A stretch of 35,714 bases of DNA from Rhodospirillales bacterium (lineage in GTDB: Bacteria > Pseudomonadota > Alphaproteobacteria > BOG-932 > Roseiterribacteraceae), in the NCBI GenBank assembly GCA_028291345.1, contig JAQGIF010000257.1, forward strand, positions 1-35,714. Reading direction: 5' to 3'. The notes under the pieces were generated by a model, which saw only the letters and a program-made list of their open reading frames with translations, did not search any database and had not been told where the DNA came from. Positions within the stretch are counted from its first letter, which is position 1. Each line of letters starts with the position of its first letter. Of the stretch, positions 3,243-10,720 are shown piece after piece. A program made the translations under genes and the position numbers.

Positions 3243-5045
3243 ATGACTGATAAGATCGTCCGCATCGGCGGCGCGTCGGGTGCGTTTGTCGATAGCGCGA
3301 TTGCGGTGCCGCAGCTTTTGACAGTGCCGGGAATTGACTATCTGATCTTCGATTATCTGGCCGAAGGCTCGATGGGCGTGTTCGGCAGGATGCAGAACGC
3401 CAATCCGGCGTCGGGCTATCTGCCCGATTTCGTCGATGTCCATGTCGGCCCCTATTTGCGGGACATCAAGGCGAAGGGCGTCAAGATCGTCGCGAATGCC
3501 GGCGGGCTGAATCCCGAAGGACTGGCAGACGCATTACGGAAAAGGGCGGAGGAGCAGGGTGTGAAGCTCAGCATCGCGACGGTCGATGGCGACGATCTGC
3601 GCCCGCGCATCGATGAGCTCCGCGCCAGGGGCATCGCCGAGATGTTCACCGGTGCGCCGTTTCCCGAAAAGATACTCACCATCAACGCCTATTTCGGCGG
3701 TTTTCCGATCGCCAACGCGCTGGCGCGGGGCGCCGACATCGTGATTACCGGCCGGGTGGTCGACAGTGCGCTGATCCTCGGGCCGTTGATCCATGAGTTC
3801 GGATGGAAGCCGACCGACTATGACCTGCTGTCGGCGGGCACGGTCGCCGGCCATCTTCTGGAATGCGGTGCGCAGGTCAGCGGCGGCACCTTCACCGACT
3901 GGCAGGATGTGCCGGACTGGGCCCATACCGGCTATCCGGTCGGCGAATGCCGCGCCGACGGCAGTTGCGTCATCACCAAGCCGGAAGGCACCGGCGGGCT
4001 GGTCTCTGTCGGCACCGTCGCCGAGCAGTTGATGTATGAGGTCAGCGACCCGCAAGCCTATTTCGTGCCCGACGTGGTGGTCGATTTCACCACCTGCAAG
4101 CTGAAGCAGGAGGGACCCCATCGCGTCCGTGTTTCAGGCGCCACCGGCTATGCCCCGACTTCCACCTACAAGGTCAGCGTTACCTATGACGATGGCTGGC
4201 GTTCGGTGGCGCTGCAACCGATTATCGGCGTCGATGCGGTGAAGCGGGCGGAGCGCCAGGGGGCGGCGATATTGGAGCGGACACGGGAGATGCTGCGCGA
4301 CCGCAACCTCGCCGACTGGCGGCTGTCTCATATGGAAATATTGGGCAATGAGGCCGGTTATGGCGCACGCTCCAACAACCTCAGTAACAGCCGCGAAGTC
4401 ATCATGAAGCTGGTAGTGGAGCATGACGACAGGCGCGCCGCCGATCTGTTCTGGCGCGAGCAGAACTCCGCGATCATGAATATGTCGGTTGGCACGTCGA
4501 TCGGCTTCGGGGGCATGGCGACGCCGATCACCCAGCATTTCTCGTTCCTGATCGACAAAACGGAACTCGAAGCCACCGTGACGGTCGGCGGCGAAACGCG
4601 GGTCGTGAAGGTTCCGACGGATGGCGGGTACAGGCCCGAACGAACGGTCCGCCCGCCGGTGCCCGCCCCGCCGGAAGGGACGATCACCGCGTCGGTGCCG
4701 CTGGTGTCCTTGGCCTGGGCGCGCAGCGGCGAAAAGGGCAATCTGTTCAATGTCGCCGTGATCGCTCGCCAGCCCGATTATCTGGGCTATATCAGGCAGG
4801 CGTTGACGCCGGCGGCGGTGGCCGACTGGTACAGGCACTTCCTGCCCGATGACCGGCAGGCCCGGATCGATCTCTATGAGGTGCCGGGGATCGGCGCGCT
4901 GAATTACGTCGTGAACGATTCGATGGCCGGCGGCATCAATAAGTCGCCACGGCTAGATTCCGGCGCCAAGGGCATGGCGCAGCAATTACTGGAATTCCCG
5001 GTGCCCGTGCCGGCTTCGGTGGCGGCCGCCGTCCGGGCCGCCTAA
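3243..5045 (+). CDS. AtuA-like acyclic terpene utilisation family protein (DUF1446), copy 1
   Basis: The 600-residue protein has the two-part architecture of AtuA-like proteins. A large DUF1446 domain (about residues 1-450) contains DYLIFDYLAEGSMG, VANAGGLNP, DIVITGRVVDSALILGPLIHEFGW and LECGAQVSGGTF. A C-terminal AtuA-like domain (about residues 475-590) contains LAWARSGEKGNLFNVAVIAR and ALNYVVNDSMAGGIN. In Pseudomonas, AtuA belongs to the citronellol/geraniol gene cluster, but its reaction is undefined. No carboxylase, acyl-CoA dehydrogenase or thiolase of that pathway is visible here. The gene starts 23 bases after the amidohydrolase-2 stop, and its stop is followed three bases later by a close paralogue. 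Confidence 0.88.
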   Translation: MTDKIVRIGGASGAFVDSAIAVPQLLTVPGIDYLIFDYLAEGSMGVFGRMQNANPASGYLPDFVDVHVGPYLRDIKAKGVKIVANAGGLNPEGLADALRKRAEEQGVKLSIATVDGDDLRPRIDELRARGIAEMFTGAPFPEKILTINAYFGGFPIANALARGADIVITGRVVDSALILGPLIHEFGWKPTDYDLLSAGTVAGHLLECGAQVSGGTFTDWQDVPDWAHTGYPVGECRADGSCVITKPEGTGGLVSVGTVAEQLMYEVSDPQAYFVPDVVVDFTTCKLKQEGPHRVRVSGATGYAPTSTYKVSVTYDDGWRSVALQPIIGVDAVKRAERQGAAILERTREMLRDRNLADWRLSHMEILGNEAGYGARSNNLSNSREVIMKLVVEHDDRRAADLFWREQNSAIMNMSVGTSIGFGGMATPITQHFSFLIDKTELEATVTVGGETRVVKVPTDGGYRPERTVRPPVPAPPEGTITASVPLVSLAWARSGEKGNLFNVAVIARQPDYLGYIRQALTPAAVADWYRHFLPDDRQARIDLYEVPGIGALNYVVNDSMAGGINKSPRLDSGAKGMAQQLLEFPVPVPASVAAAVRAA

Positions 5046-5048
5046 AGG

Positions 5049-6854
5049 ATGACCGGCAAAATCGTCAAGATCGGCGGCGCGGCGGGCGCGTCGATCGATA
5101 GCGCCATTGCCGTGCCGCAACTGCTGGGCGTTCCAGGGATCAATTATCTGATCTTCGACTATCTGGGCGAGGGGGCGATGGGCCTGTTCGCCAAGCTGCA
5201 GCAGGCCGATCCGAACTCGGGCTATATGACGGACTTTATCGATGTCCATGTCGCGCCCTATATGAGCGAACTGAAGGCCAAGGGCGTGAAGTTCGTCGCC
5301 AATGCCGGGGCGCTGAACCCGCGGGGGCTGGCGACGGCATTGGCCAAGAGGGCGGATGAGCTGGGGGTGGCGCTCAAGATCGGTGTTGTCGATGGCGACG
5401 ATCTGCGCGGTCGGGTGGAGGAACTGCGCCGCGAAGGTCATCGCGATATGTTCTCTGGCGCGCCGTTTCCCGATACGGTGCTCAGCATCAATGCCTATCT
5501 CGGCGGGTTTCCGATCGCCGCTGCGCTGGCGGAGGGGGCGGATATCGTCGTTACCGGTCGGGTGGTCGACAGCGCGCTGATCCTGGGGCCGCTGATCCAT
5601 GAGTTCGGCTGGAAGCCGACCGATTACGATCTGCTGGCCGCGGGCACGGCGGCGGGGCATCTCCTGGAATGCGGCGCGCAGTCGACCGGCGGCACTTTTA
5701 CCGACTGGCGCGATGTGCCGGATTGGGCGCATGCTGGCTACCCGGTGGGCGAGTGCCATGCCGATGGCACCATCGTGTTGACCAAGCCCGAGGGTTCCGG
5801 CGGGCTGTGTTCGATCGGGACCGTGGCCGAGCAGCTGCTCTATGAGGTCAGCGATCCGCAATCCTATATCGTGCCGGACGTGGTCTGCGACTTTAGCGGC
5901 GTGAGATTGGAGCAGATCGGCCCCGACCGGGTGTCGGTGCGCAATGTGAGGGGATATGCGCCGACCGCGACCTATAAGGTCTGCGTGACCTACGAGGATG
6001 GGTGGCGCGCCGTGTCGGTAATGCCGATTGTTGGGGTCGAGGCGCCGGCTAAGGCCGAGCGGCAGGCGGCGGCGATATTGGAGCGGACGCGCGAGATGCT
6101 GCGCGACCGCAATCTAGGCGATTTGCGCATGACCCATGTCGAGGTGCTGGCGGGCGAGGGCAGTTACGGCGCCCACGCACGAGGCACCACGGCGCGCGAG
6201 GCGATCTGCAAGGTCGCGGTGGAGCATGACGACAAGCGCGCGATCGACATTTTCTGGCGCGAGCAATTCTCGGCGATGATGAACATGTCGGTCGGCACGA
6301 CGATCGGCAGCCTGTCCGGATTCGGCCGCATGCCGGGGCCGGTGACAAAGATGTTCTCGTTCCTGATCGACAAGCCGCGGGTCCTGGCCCGAGTGCAGGC
6401 CGGTGGGCACCACGTGAGCTTCGAAGCTGGCGGGACGGATGTGTTTCGGTCGCCGATGATCGTGCGCCCTCCTGCCCCGACGGAACCGTCGGATGCGGAT
6501 CCAGTGACGACAGTGCCGCTGATCGCGCTGGCCTGGGCGCGCAGCGGCGACAAGGGCGATCTGTTCAATGTGGGGGTGATCGCGCGGCGGCCGGACTGGC
6601 TGCCTTATATCCGTGCCGCCCTGACGCCGGTGGCGGTGGCAGAATGGTACAGCCATTTCGGCCCTTCGCATGTCGACCGCTATGACCTGCCGGGCCTCCA
6701 TGCGCTGAATTTCGTCGTGCACGAATCGCTCGCCGGCGGGATCAACTCCTCGCCCAGGCTCGATGCGGCGGCCAAAGGCATGGCGCAGCAATTGCTGGAA
6801 TTTCCGGTTCCGGTGTCGCCTGGGATTGCGGCTTCTCTAACCCCCTCGAAATAA
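5049..6854 (+). CDS. AtuA-like acyclic terpene utilisation family protein (DUF1446), copy 2
   Basis: This 601-residue protein is collinear with the gene just upstream and, by eye, identical at well over half of its residues. Long blocks are unchanged, such as TGRVVDSALILGPLIHEFGW and KGMAQQLLEFPVPV. It has the same DUF1446 domain followed by the AtuA-like C-terminal domain (LAWARSGDKGDLFNVGVIAR). The start ATG lies in TAAAGGATG, three bases after the previous stop, with the AAGG serving as ribosome-binding site, so the two are surely co-translated. The pair is a tandem duplication that has since diverged, possibly giving a hetero-oligomer or two substrate specificities. No biochemical role can be assigned. 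Confidence 0.88.
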   Translation: MTGKIVKIGGAAGASIDSAIAVPQLLGVPGINYLIFDYLGEGAMGLFAKLQQADPNSGYMTDFIDVHVAPYMSELKAKGVKFVANAGALNPRGLATALAKRADELGVALKIGVVDGDDLRGRVEELRREGHRDMFSGAPFPDTVLSINAYLGGFPIAAALAEGADIVVTGRVVDSALILGPLIHEFGWKPTDYDLLAAGTAAGHLLECGAQSTGGTFTDWRDVPDWAHAGYPVGECHADGTIVLTKPEGSGGLCSIGTVAEQLLYEVSDPQSYIVPDVVCDFSGVRLEQIGPDRVSVRNVRGYAPTATYKVCVTYEDGWRAVSVMPIVGVEAPAKAERQAAAILERTREMLRDRNLGDLRMTHVEVLAGEGSYGAHARGTTAREAICKVAVEHDDKRAIDIFWREQFSAMMNMSVGTTIGSLSGFGRMPGPVTKMFSFLIDKPRVLARVQAGGHHVSFEAGGTDVFRSPMIVRPPAPTEPSDADPVTTVPLIALAWARSGDKGDLFNVGVIARRPDWLPYIRAALTPVAVAEWYSHFGPSHVDRYDLPGLHALNFVVHESLAGGINSSPRLDAAAKGMAQQLLEFPVPVSPGIAASLTPSK

Positions 6855-6866
6855 GGCATAAACTTT

Positions 6867-6897
6867 CGTCGCTGCGCTTCTCGCAGTGGCAATTCGT
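6867..6897. repeat. Degenerate half copy of palindromic repeat family A
   Basis: The segment CGTCGCTGCGCTTCTCGCAG followed by TGGCAATTCGTG resembles the right arm of the repeat at 1921-2016 (CGTCGCTGCACATCTCGCA, ATTACG). The matching left arm is missing. It lies between the second AtuA-like gene and the SRPBCC gene and reaches almost to the latter's ribosome-binding site. Confidence 0.45.
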
Positions 6898-6916
6898 GCC
6901 TAACCGAGGATTTGAA

Positions 6917-7423
6917 GTGCCCGATAATTTCGACCCTATAACCGGATTCGATCCGGCGAATGTTGCGCGTTCCGAAACCGTCGAGATCAATGCTCCGGCC
7001 TCGCTCGTTTGGGAAATCCTGACCGATCTGCCGCGTTACGGCGAATGGAACCCGTTCTGCGTGAAGGCGGTATCGACGCTGGAGATCGGCGCGCCGATTT
7101 ACATGACGCTCGCAAATTTCTGGAACGACCAGCTGGCGCTGAATATCGAATATGTGTGCGCCGTCGAGCCGGAACGAGTGCTGTCCTGGGAGTTGAAGCA
7201 TACGCCGGAATGGCCCTATGCCGCGCGCCGCGACCAGGTGATCACGGCGCTGGGGCCGGATCGCTGTTCCTATTACACGACCGACGAATTTTACGGCGAT
7301 ACGGGCGTGCATGTGATGCGGTTCTGCGGTGGCTGGGTGAAGGCCGCGTTCGACGGCGCGGCGCGGGCGTTGAAGACGCGCGCCGAGGTGATCTACGCCC
7401 ATGGCAATCGCGCTGGCAAATAG
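6917..7423 (+). CDS. SRPBCC family protein
   Basis: The 168-residue product has the START/Bet v1-like (SRPBCC) pattern. An opening strand SETVEINAPASLVWEILTDLPRYGEWNPFC is followed by a strand-rich body with ALNIEYVCAVEPERVLSWELKH and a C-terminal helix containing FDGAARALKTRAE. Such proteins bind hydrophobic ligands in a cavity and include cyclases, hydratases and ligand carriers. The GTG at 6917 was chosen because a GAGGA ribosome-binding site sits six bases before it. An in-frame GTG at 6896 would add seven residues but has no such site and lies in repeat-derived sequence. It is last in the forward cluster and ends three bases from the convergent fusion gene. Confidence 0.75.
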   Translation: MPDNFDPITGFDPANVARSETVEINAPASLVWEILTDLPRYGEWNPFCVKAVSTLEIGAPIYMTLANFWNDQLALNIEYVCAVEPERVLSWELKHTPEWPYAARRDQVITALGPDRCSYYTTDEFYGDTGVHVMRFCGGWVKAAFDGAARALKTRAEVIYAHGNRAGK

Positions 7424-7426
7424 GCT

Positions 7427-9073
7427 TCAGAACCAGCGGAACCATTTCGCTTTGGGCGGGGAGTCATCGGGCTTGCCGTCGAGGTAGAAATACTGGCCGC
7501 CGCCGGGATGCCGGCAGACCCTGCGCATGTCGGCCCGCCGGCTGATCGCGCTGTAATGCGAGATCATCGAGCGCCGCTCCGCGTCCGGCCGATCGGGTAG
7601 AGAGCCGCGATGAACAAGGCGCGAATGCCAGATCAGCACATCGCCCTTGGCCCCGAGAAACCGCTGGGGCTTGAGGCCGGTGCGGGCGATTTCCTGCTCG
7701 AAGAAGGGCGTCAATAAGCGCTCCGACGCCCAAGGCCAGCTGGGATCGTCGCCATTGGCGTAGCCCAGCTTCTCCAGCACCTTAGCCTGGCGAATAACCG
7801 GCCAGCGATGGGATCCCGGCACATATTCGAACGGTCCAGCATCGGGCTGGATCTGGTCAAGGGCGGTCCACACCCCGGCATAGTGCCCGTTGACTTGGGG
7901 CGGGTTGAGATAGTCGTCCTGGTGCCAATCGCGTTCGGTGCTGACCCAGCCGGTCAGGTTAAGATGCAACGCGACCGGCTCGCCCAATAGATGTTCCAGC
8001 ATGTCGGTCAAGGGCTTGTACAGGCACAGATCCCGAATCTCCGGTACGTTCATATAGGGGGTCGATGAAAGCCAGCCCTGGCGGTGCGAGACCTGGCTAC
8101 GGATGGCGCAATAGCGTTCGACCAGATCGTCTGGGATCAACTTGGGCAGAATAACGTAGCCCTGTTCCCGCCAAGCGCGCTGTTCAGGCGAGAGCTTGGC
8201 GACATCAACCTTGGCGCGATCCATCGGGGGCAAGTCGCGGTCATCCACCGCGGCGCTGAGATCGGCCCAAGTGAGCTTGCTTTCTGCCATGCGACGCGCT
8301 TTGACGCGCAGAAATCCGTCATTGTCCGCGCCGCCGAATTGCTCGATGGCGACGCGCCGGAAACCCAGCGTATCGAGAAGTCGCCGCACACTCGCGGGCG
8401 TGAAATAGTTTAGGTAGCAGTTCGGGATGAATAGATTGCTATTCCATCCGGCACGCTTGCTCTCGGAGGAGTTGAAGTTAGGCAAGGTTAGATAGAGAAG
8501 GCCGCCCGGCTTCAGCGCAGCTGTGCAAGCTTCAAGGAAGGCATGGGGGTCGGCGACGAATTGCAGCACGTCGATCGAAATGACGACATCCTGAGACGCC
8601 GGCGGCACCGAAGCCTTTTCCATCGTGGAGATTTCGATCGGCAACCGCAGATATTTTCGGCCGATCGCGGCGACGGCGGCCCAGGGATCGACACCGCGCA
8701 CCGCCCAGCCATGGCTGCGGAACTGCACCAGCACCTGCCCCACGCCGCAGCCCACATCGAGGATCGCCGGCGGTTCGGATGAGGCGACCTGTGTCCGCGC
8801 GGTGCGGTCTAGCTCGGTACTGCCAATATCGGCGACGTAGAAATTACAGGCGCTGTAGTCGAGCATCTCCCAATCGGCATAATAGGCCTCGGCTGAATCC
8901 GCCGAGAAATCCTGGGGTATGCGCGGCCAGATAAAGGTGAAGTCGCAGGTTGCGCAGGCGAATGCCTCGCAGCCGCGATCTGGCGCGGCCCAAACGGGAA
9001 AACCCGCCGGCTGACCGCAGATGGGGCAGGCGACGGACGTGTCGGCCTCGGGCTTCAGCGATCGGCTAATCAT
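7427..9073 (-). CDS. Methyltransferase-phytanoyl-CoA dioxygenase family fusion protein
   Basis: The 548-residue protein joins two enzymes. Residues 16-43 form a CPIC...CATC zinc ribbon of the type seen in surface-glycan methyltransferases. Residues 100-260 are a class I SAM methyltransferase, with ILDVGCGVG (104-112) as motif I and LKPGGLLYLTLPNF as a later motif. Residues about 300-548 are a PhyH-type Fe(II)/2-oxoglutarate hydroxylase with His384 and Asp386 (WHQDD), distal His488 (VHRGS) and an Arg at 500/501 for 2-oxoglutarate. All key residues appear intact, so both halves could be active. Its ATG overlaps the stop of the upstream methyltransferase gene (ATGA at 9070-9073), implying translational coupling. 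It plausibly methylates and hydroxylates the same small molecule or glycan; the substrate is unknown. Confidence 0.85.
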   Translation of the reverse strand: MISRSLKPEADTSVACPICGQPAGFPVWAAPDRGCEAFACATCDFTFIWPRIPQDFSADSAEAYYADWEMLDYSACNFYVADIGSTELDRTARTQVASSEPPAILDVGCGVGQVLVQFRSHGWAVRGVDPWAAVAAIGRKYLRLPIEISTMEKASVPPASQDVVISIDVLQFVADPHAFLEACTAALKPGGLLYLTLPNFNSSESKRAGWNSNLFIPNCYLNYFTPASVRRLLDTLGFRRVAIEQFGGADNDGFLRVKARRMAESKLTWADLSAAVDDRDLPPMDRAKVDVAKLSPEQRAWREQGYVILPKLIPDDLVERYCAIRSQVSHRQGWLSSTPYMNVPEIRDLCLYKPLTDMLEHLLGEPVALHLNLTGWVSTERDWHQDDYLNPPQVNGHYAGVWTALDQIQPDAGPFEYVPGSHRWPVIRQAKVLEKLGYANGDDPSWPWASERLLTPFFEQEIARTGLKPQRFLGAKGDVLIWHSRLVHRGSLPDRPDAERRSMISHYSAISRRADMRRVCRHPGGGQYFYLDGKPDDSPPKAKWFRWF

Positions 9074-9816
9074 GTCAGCTCATTTCGTCGGCGCAGGATC
9101 CATATTACTTCGATACCATTCAACCGCGAAGATTCAACCTCCAGCCCATAGGTGGGAGTTTTCGCGACATAGGCAAAGAGTTCCATCATCGCCGGGTAAT
9201 CCCAGACGTGGAAATGGATATTGGCCCGGATTTGCGTCATGAGCGCAATTTTCCCCGCCGCTTCGTCGCTGTGCAGATCGTCGACGCACCGGACCCATTC
9301 TTCGTAATGGCTCAGCAGCGAGGCGTCCGGCCCTTCTTCGTTGTCGCGGATCAGGTGATCCAGCCGCGTGACCTCGCGGTCCTTGTCGAAGGTGAAGCGC
9401 TTGTCCGGCAGCGCCATTACGGCGATGCCCGATGGCCGGAGCACCCTGGCGACCGAATGCAGCGCCCGTAGCGGATCCTCGACATGCTCCAGCACATGAT
9501 TGGCGATGATGAAATCCTGGCTCGCCGTTTCGATGCCCTTCATCGATTCGAGATCGCTCACCAGGTCGGGGCGCTGAATGTTCGCGACGTCGGGAAACGA
9601 GTTTCGCAGCTTTTCTGCCGGTTCGAAATCGGCATATCTCACAGTGACGCCGTTCGGTACCTTAAGGGCGGAGTGCAAAGCGCCGAACTCGATTCCTTCG
9701 CCGCGAATATAATCGCGGGCAACTAGCGCACGGATCTCGTAAGTGTCGAGTCGGGCCGAGGGCGGTGGGCTTAACCACCGGCGCAACCCGCCCCGTACCG
9801 CATTTGCGAGCTTCAC
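9070..9816 (-). CDS. Class I SAM-dependent methyltransferase
   Basis: The 248-residue protein is a Methyltransf_11/23-type enzyme. It has a somewhat unusual motif I (GEGIEFGALHSAL instead of a glycine-rich DxGxGxG). This is followed by VRYADFEP, the typical NHVLEHVEDPLRALHSVARVLRPSG segment, and VMALPDKRFTFDKDREVT. The last parts recall methyltransferases linked with glycosyltransferases. I chose the GTG at 9816, preceded by GGAG. A frame-open ATG at 9897 would overlap the upstream oxidoreductase gene by 47 bases and add low-complexity residues. Its stop overlaps the start of the methyltransferase-hydroxylase fusion by four bases. Confidence 0.75.
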   Translation of the reverse strand: MKLANAVRGGLRRWLSPPPSARLDTYEIRALVARDYIRGEGIEFGALHSALKVPNGVTVRYADFEPAEKLRNSFPDVANIQRPDLVSDLESMKGIETASQDFIIANHVLEHVEDPLRALHSVARVLRPSGIAVMALPDKRFTFDKDREVTRLDHLIRDNEEGPDASLLSHYEEWVRCVDDLHSDEAAGKIALMTQIRANIHFHVWDYPAMMELFAYVAKTPTYGLEVESSRLNGIEVIWILRRRNELT

Positions 9817-9850
9817 TTTCGCTATTCTCCAGTGGCCGACTCGCGTCGGC

Positions 9851-10720
9851 TCAGGCGAACTTGGAGATGACGTCGTCCGCGTAGCGGGCGATGGCATCCT
9901 TCTCCAGCTGGAGATCCTTGGTGCCGGGGCTGTAGATCTGCCACGGTTGGGTCATGATGCGGGTCACGCCCTGGTCCTCCAGCCGTTTGTAGCCGTCGAC
10001 ATCGAACACATCCATCGGTGTCGCCAGCACGTCGAAATCGTTCGGCTCGCGACCATATTCCTTGCGGTATTCGCGGATCTTATTGATGCTGTCGACGATG
10101 TCGGCGGCCGATTGCAGGTCGGAGAGCCAGCCGTCGCCGATGCGCGCGGCTCGGCGCATGGCCGCCTCGGAAATCCCGCCGACCCAGATCGGGATCGGCT
10201 TTGTCGGCGGCGGGTTCATCTCGATCCGGTCGAAGTTGTAATGCTTGCCGTGATATTCGACATATTTGCCGGTCCAGAGCAGCTTCATGATCTCGACCAT
10301 CTCGTCTGCGCGCTTGCCCCGGGTCGAGAATTCCTGGCCGAGCAATTCGAACTCGTCCTTCGACCAGCCCACGCCGATAGTCAGCACCACACGGTTGTCA
10401 GAGATGACGGCGGCCGTCGATACCGCCTTGGCGACGATGAAGGGGTTGCGCATCGGCAGCACGAAGGCGTTCGTGGTGAAGCGCAGCCGTTTCGTGACGG
10501 TCGCAAAGGCGCCCATCATGACGATCTGATCGGGCCAGTCGGTGAATTCGGGCCAGCGACGCGAGCCGTCGGGCGTGTAGGGGTAGGGGACGGTCAGCGT
10601 CTCGGGATTCACCGTGTGGTCGGACAACGTGATCATGTCCCATCCGGTCTGGTCGGCGGCGATGGCCAATTCGGGCAAATGAGCGACCGGTGTGAAGGAG
10701 CCGGATAGAGCGAACTTCAT
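9851..10720 (-). CDS. LLM class (luciferase-like) flavin/F420-dependent oxidoreductase
   Basis: The 289-residue protein has the bacterial luciferase-like TIM-barrel signature. It begins MKFALSGSF, followed by ELAIAADQTGWDMITLSDH, VLTIGVGWSKDEFELLG with GKRADEMVEIMKLLW, and PIPIWVGGISEAAMRRAARIGDGWL. This pattern matches the subgroup usually annotated as F420-dependent (TIGR03619-like). Many proteobacteria lack F420, so FMN may be the real cofactor. A GGGGATATC leader gives a good ribosome-binding site before the ATG at 10720. It heads a reverse operon with two methyltransferase genes, which suggests oxidation plus methylation of one substrate. Confidence 0.85.
   Translation of the reverse strand: MKFALSGSFTPVAHLPELAIAADQTGWDMITLSDHTVNPETLTVPYPYTPDGSRRWPEFTDWPDQIVMMGAFATVTKRLRFTTNAFVLPMRNPFIVAKAVSTAAVISDNRVVLTIGVGWSKDEFELLGQEFSTRGKRADEMVEIMKLLWTGKYVEYHGKHYNFDRIEMNPPPTKPIPIWVGGISEAAMRRAARIGDGWLSDLQSAADIVDSINKIREYRKEYGREPNDFDVLATPMDVFDVDGYKRLEDQGVTRIMTQPWQIYSPGTKDLQLEKDAIARYADDVISKFA

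Follow-up and report, generated by a model that had tools for sequence, protein, structure and literature searches.

What does a single polypeptide that joins a four-Cys ribbon, a SAM methyltransferase, and a PhyH-type oxygenase do, which genes belong with it, and is it a natural fusion at all? These questions are raised by two overlapping genes, here called MT1 and FUS, in a stretch of 35,714 nucleotides from a Rhodospirillales bacterium (contig JAQGIF010000257.1), hereafter the window. The genes and the predicted domains of FUS are the following (window coordinates).

9070–9816, minus strand: MT1, predicted class I SAM-dependent methyltransferase, 248 aa; 60–63% identical to the Rokubacteriota copy
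7427–9073, minus strand: FUS, 548-aa fusion of a four-Cys ribbon, a SAM methyltransferase, and a PhyH-type Fe(II)/2OG oxygenase (all predicted); ATGA overlap with MT1
8851–9028, minus strand: N-terminal ribbon and linker of FUS, approximately residues 16–75; Cys16/19/40/43 kept in the homologue from locus L007
8291–8783, minus strand: predicted methyltransferase domain of FUS, approximately residues 97–261; motif I at 104–112
7470–8272, minus strand: predicted PhyH oxygenase domain of FUS, approximately residues 268–535; H384, D386, H488, R500

FUS is read from a single intact frame without an internal stop (ORF 7427–9073, minus strand). Pfam domain calls were judged against curated cut-offs, and both FUS domains exceed them: Methyltransf_23 covers residues 98–241 (E 3e-19, 69.8 bits versus a cut-off of 27), and PhyH (PF05721) covers residues 355–490 (E 3.2e-19, 70.5 bits versus 22). 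Motif I of the methyltransferase domain, ILDVGCGVG (residues 104–112), is of the DxGxGxG type and, taken with the profile, predicts a class I SAM methyltransferase. H384, D386, H488, and R500 are invariant in a 27-sequence alignment, the last two by alignment column, and R500 is likely the 2-oxoglutarate-binding Arg. The profile, the HxD...H facial triad with this Arg, and the modelled double-stranded beta-helix fold together predict a PhyH-family oxygenase. The cysteines at positions 16, 19, 40, and 43 and motif I are found in the Rokubacteriota homologue (L007) as well, and the ribbon would be expected to bind metal. The three-domain layout and all key residues named in an earlier sequence-only reading of this DNA (Cys16/19/40/43, motif I, His384/Asp386/His488) are present.

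MT1 starts with GTG at 9816, with GGAG 10 nt upstream, and its match to Methyltransf_11 (Pfam, 39.7 bits versus a cut-off of 21.2) predicts another class I SAM methyltransferase; its family marks are a variant motif I, EFGALH, and an IHFHVW motif. The same reading had noted that FUS starts within the stop of another methyltransferase gene, correctly: at the ATGA junction the MT1 stop TGA overlaps the FUS start ATG. Judging from this overlap, FUS is translationally coupled to MT1. The promoter and terminator scan yielded nothing above chance. A 16-bp inverted repeat, GCCGACTCGCGTCGGC, is seen at window positions 9835–9850, between the stop of the next, luciferase-like gene and the MT1 start and near the right border of the insert described below; it is not a called terminator.

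The fusion could have been produced by an artificial merge of two genes at the domain joint, e.g., by a missing base. This is ruled out by an independent fused homologue in another phylum and by stand-alone oxygenases that align from the joint. A scan of ~85,000 species genomes returned a single further fused protein, 58–59% identical over residues 10–532; its source is a Rokubacteriota MAG (L007, QHRT01000061). The other bacterial matches of that scan are oxygenases alone, and their N-termini (TFADLS...) align exactly from the joint, residue 268 on, which indicates that an entire stand-alone oxygenase was attached to a methyltransferase in the fusion. A tree with an unresolved backbone places the two fused oxygenases together in a clade (support 100/99), separate from the viral and the stand-alone bacterial ones. 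The fusion, as judged by these comparisons, is genuine and rare, where "rare" is qualified by the use of six exact peptides in the scan and hence by its limited sensitivity. At E <= 1e-30, FUS is found in no other genome of the 385 sampled in the class of the window and in none of the 94 other genomes of the phylum of the Rokubacteriota MAG. There is likewise no match to FUS in INPHARED or in the plasmid collections, and carriage on a plasmid or a known phage was rejected.

The pair in L007 has the same gene order, and its MT1 copy (63% identical) ends one base before the FUS copy begins. The search for the same domain order and its neighbours gave one fused homologue with the same partner. 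The luciferase-like gene, which lies next to the pair in the window, does not adjoin the Rokubacteriota pair. The pair is followed after 4 bp by the N-terminal domain of a UDP-glucose/GDP-mannose dehydrogenase. This nucleotide-sugar dehydrogenase (L007 5937–8489) is cut after ~195 residues and runs into a peptidase-like gene of the opposite strand, possibly because the contig is a chimera or because the dehydrogenase gene is broken.

To our knowledge, methyltransferase–oxygenase fusions are known only from orthosomycin antibiotics, and a literature search gave nothing relevant on a FUS-type fusion or on phage oxygenase–methyltransferase modules. In a Foldseek search of the PDB with the FUS model, three chains of EvdMO1 (6ec3) rank top, with both domains aligned over 478–494 columns (E 3.7e-15 to 2e-14, ~16% identity). 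EvdMO1, a structurally solved methyltransferase–oxygenase fusion of everninomicin biosynthesis, is cited in PMC10338323. Like FUS, it combines in one chain an N-terminal SAM methyltransferase with a C-terminal Fe(II)/2OG oxygenase, and it serves the pathway of an oligosaccharide antibiotic. By the modelled structure, the FUS architecture is therefore not new in kind. At the same time, 6ec3 is not listed by phmmer and is not among the best 60 of 83 profile matches; the modelled EvdMO1 chains have ~414 residues, so that the N-terminal ribbon of FUS is probably absent there; and FUS is paired with MT1, with no orthosomycin cluster in the window or in L007. The remark that no described system is known with exactly this set holds in part only, as EvdMO1 is a solved fusion of the same domain order. 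Compared with EvdMO1, several features are new: FUS carries a ribbon and is remote in sequence, it is paired with MT1, the pair has passed from one phylum to another, and the oxygenase family is repeatedly found coupled to methyltransferases in phage contigs.

The two halves of the model differ in quality: pLDDT is above 90 over most of residues 270–530, in the oxygenase domain, and ~40 in the methyltransferase domain, which is modelled poorly due to few aligned relatives (a two-row alignment). The whole-chain TM-scores to EvdMO1 are accordingly low (0.25–0.35), given one poorly modelled domain and free domain placement. A direct hand-over between the FUS halves should not be assumed. A domain-level structure aligner gives Z ~20 to EctD, proline hydroxylase H11, GriE, and SnoN. 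These PhyH (PF05721) oxygenases (EctD, SnoN/SnoK, KanJ, H11) share with FUS the fold (rmsd 2.5 to 3.5 A over ~200–227 residues), the HxD...H iron site, and the counterpart of Arg500; they differ in sequence (15–21% identity) and in substrates, and the solved ones are stand-alone.

Which genes form a unit is indicated by two sibling genomes of the same genus, G001 and G002, at the following site.

7397–9842, no strand: stretch missing from G001 and G002; window 7396 = L055 8934 and 9843 = L055 8945, likewise in G002 (L056)
9851–10720, minus strand: F420-type luciferase-like oxidoreductase (TIGR03619), an old neighbour outside the cassette
6896–7423, plus strand: SRPBCC/polyketide-cyclase-like gene, the other flank of the site, common to the siblings

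In G001 (L055) only ~11 bp correspond to these 2.45 kb of the window, and it keeps the tandem AtuA, SRPBCC, luciferase-like, sigma factor, glyoxalase, and FAD genes in the order of the window. The luciferase-like gene is 94% identical to that of the window in G001 and 84% in G002; in both it has no MT1–FUS between it and the SRPBCC gene, and FUS is not found elsewhere in either genome. Since the luciferase-like gene keeps its place beside the SRPBCC gene without the pair, synteny rules it out as a member, and the set consists of MT1 and FUS. It was true, but misleading, to say that this gene precedes both others, and the three-step operon that would methylate, hydroxylate, and oxidise one molecule is not supported: the gene stays without the pair in both siblings, and none lies beside the L007 pair.

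On this comparison of gene order, MT1 and FUS form a two-gene cassette that was most likely acquired in the lineage of the window. Base composition was rejected as a sign of foreign origin: FUS (GC3 75.2%) is ordinary for the window, even though the lowest value belongs to MT1 (70.7%), so that the evidence for such an origin is the empty site. The borders carry no phage gene or integrase, and no direct repeat or target-site duplication (no shared word of at least 7 bp). The ordinary composition of FUS and a genus sample of three genomes would also suit a cassette ancestral to the genus and lost twice, by the siblings; we regard this as improbable, as two siblings of unequal distance, by the identity of their luciferase-like genes, both lack the pair, and no second FUS is found at E <= 1e-30 among the 385 genomes sampled in the class. 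Window 3243–6854 carries two tandem AtuA-type genes with 67% mutual identity, tandem also in G001, and three more copies are found elsewhere in the genome.

The possible target is suggested by the relatives of the two methyltransferases. The ribbon-methyltransferase domain of FUS has a match at E <= 1e-15 in 14 of 398 genomes of the phylum (window's own included). Ten neighbourhoods were fetched; a glycosyltransferase is close to the relative in six (L110, L111, L112, L113, L116, and L118), and a sugar-nucleotide-type transferase is beside it in two (L115 and L117), the assignments of these glycan-gene neighbours being Pfam-confirmed for the genes tested. The ribbon-bearing Methyltransf_23 enzymes of glycan loci (L096–L108) resemble this part of FUS in the methyltransferase and, in most, the four-Cys N-terminus (25–37% identity), but have ~300 aa, are free of a fused oxygenase in the cases examined, and adjoin glycosyltransferases. 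A relative of MT1 on a Bradyrhizobium plasmid is followed by an overlapping glycosyltransferase gene, with an ABC transporter pair nearby. In the window itself MT1–FUS has neither a glycosyltransferase nor a sugar-nucleotide gene among its detected neighbours; the earlier statement that the pair has neither a glycosyltransferase nor a biosynthetic core beside it is borne out, though relatives of both methyltransferases adjoin glycan genes.

We give about an even chance to the reading, drawn from the gene neighbourhoods of relatives, that the cassette is a glycan-decorating methylate-and-oxidise unit, with the FUS active sites serving one saccharide in turn, in trans. The cassette would have arrived by horizontal transfer between the SRPBCC gene and the luciferase-like gene. 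MT1 and the FUS methyltransferase would methylate sugar hydroxyls, either in a glycan (surface or extracellular) or in its activated precursor, and the FUS oxygenase would hydroxylate or otherwise oxidise that saccharide too, with both active sites of FUS acting successively on a single substrate, as proposed for EvdMO1-like fusions. O-methylation is the commonest reaction of such methyltransferases. A sugar target is suggested by the glycosyltransferase and nucleotide-sugar neighbours of the methyltransferase relatives; action in trans, with the glycan itself produced from another part of the genome, is suggested by the lack of an adjoining glycan-synthesis gene in the window. Further points in favour are the viral oxygenase–methyltransferase pairs described below, some with a GT2 upstream, and the top structural rank of EvdMO1, with its oligosaccharide pathway. 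If the shared target is a glycan, the cassette offers a small testable unit for methyl-plus-oxidative sugar decoration and a handle on the role of many 2OG oxygenases in phage genomes.

Several observations count against the glycan reading, among them the lack of an adjoining glycan gene in the window, the truncation of the L007 dehydrogenase on a possibly chimeric contig, the poor model of the methyltransferase domain, and the ordinary GC3 of FUS. Hydroxylases of amino acids and ectoine, besides glycoside-acting enzymes, are among the closest folds other than EvdMO1. Further, a stand-alone oxygenase is present in 12 genomes among the 299 from a single order (the order of an Acetobacteraceae MAG), with no methyltransferase of these kinds nearby; hence, the family does not necessarily require a methylated substrate. 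On a Ruegeria contig, transposase fragments (L010 8759–9475 and 11489–11938) are seen on both sides of a stand-alone oxygenase gene.

The main rival is that the pair tailors a small secreted natural product (peptide, polyketide, or aromatic) from another locus, the luciferase-like enzyme adding a third step; we consider it rather unlikely. Both enzyme classes, PhyH and class I methyltransferases, often serve in tailoring; SnoN, SnoK, GriE, PtlH, KanJ, and EctD are among the top folds near the FUS oxygenase; and the luciferase-like gene lies 34 nt upstream of MT1 on the same strand. However, that gene does not travel with the pair, as the siblings and L007 indicate; no biosynthetic core is seen in the window; and the methyltransferase relatives adjoin glycan genes.

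Viral contigs hold further oxygenase relatives. At 13 of 23 IMG/VR oxygenase loci a methyltransferase gene lies directly downstream on the same strand, with gaps from -4 to 254 bp, seven overlapping, although several of the 23 contigs are near-identical or related and the 13 are not independent cases. L070–L072 and L074 have a second methyltransferase gene, upstream of the oxygenase, and L069 and L070 have a family 2 glycosyltransferase gene at an upstream position; methyltransferase assignments were Pfam-confirmed for representatives. The phage pairs (e.g., L070, L078, L079, L085) have an oxygenase of the same family, 45–51% identical, with a coupled methyltransferase gene; they differ from FUS in being separate genes, in the order oxygenase then methyltransferase, and in the methyltransferase family. 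L070 (9387–11331) and its relatives form methyltransferase–oxygenase–methyltransferase triplets with 4-bp overlaps each and a GT2-TPR gene before them; the PHROGs profiles do not match the oxygenase or the downstream methyltransferase of these triplets.

Accordingly, the cassette might be a captured phage-derived module, in which the oxygenase–methyltransferase pairing decorates virion or host surface glycans and perhaps alters phage adsorption. Besides the viral pairs, two IMG/VR relatives of MT1, each standing alone and oriented against its neighbours, agree with this. Still, we think it unlikely: the fused form is found at none of the 23 IMG/VR loci, no ribbon-methyltransferase was confirmed in viral contigs, a viral query finds no phage relatives in INPHARED, and neither the insert borders nor the INPHARED and plasmid searches with FUS link the pair to a phage.

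Returning to the glycan-decorating unit, a more specific version of it is that FUS would O-methylate a sugar, after which the FUS oxygenase would convert the new methyl to a methylenedioxy bridge, a hydroxymethyl, or a formyl group, on a bacterial surface glycan and not on an antibiotic. We assign it little probability, and we know of no methyl-oxidation product of this type in bacterial envelopes; if true, MT1–FUS would be a two-gene cassette able to transfer and to confer a modification new to them. A role in anti-phage defence, suggested by a match of the PADLOC mad2 profile to FUS 99–248 (E 1e-10), is rejected as very improbable, as only the generic methyltransferase region is covered (profile 290–427 of 492) and no other defence gene is seen beside FUS.

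Two oxygenase relatives have features of their own. The stand-alone one at L058 5145–6554 (G660) carries an extra N-terminal stretch of ~190 aa in frame, and the oxygenase–methyltransferase pair of the IMG/VR contig L079 is preceded, two genes upstream, by a tryptophan-halogenase-like gene (469–2019; Pfam E 2.6e-106).
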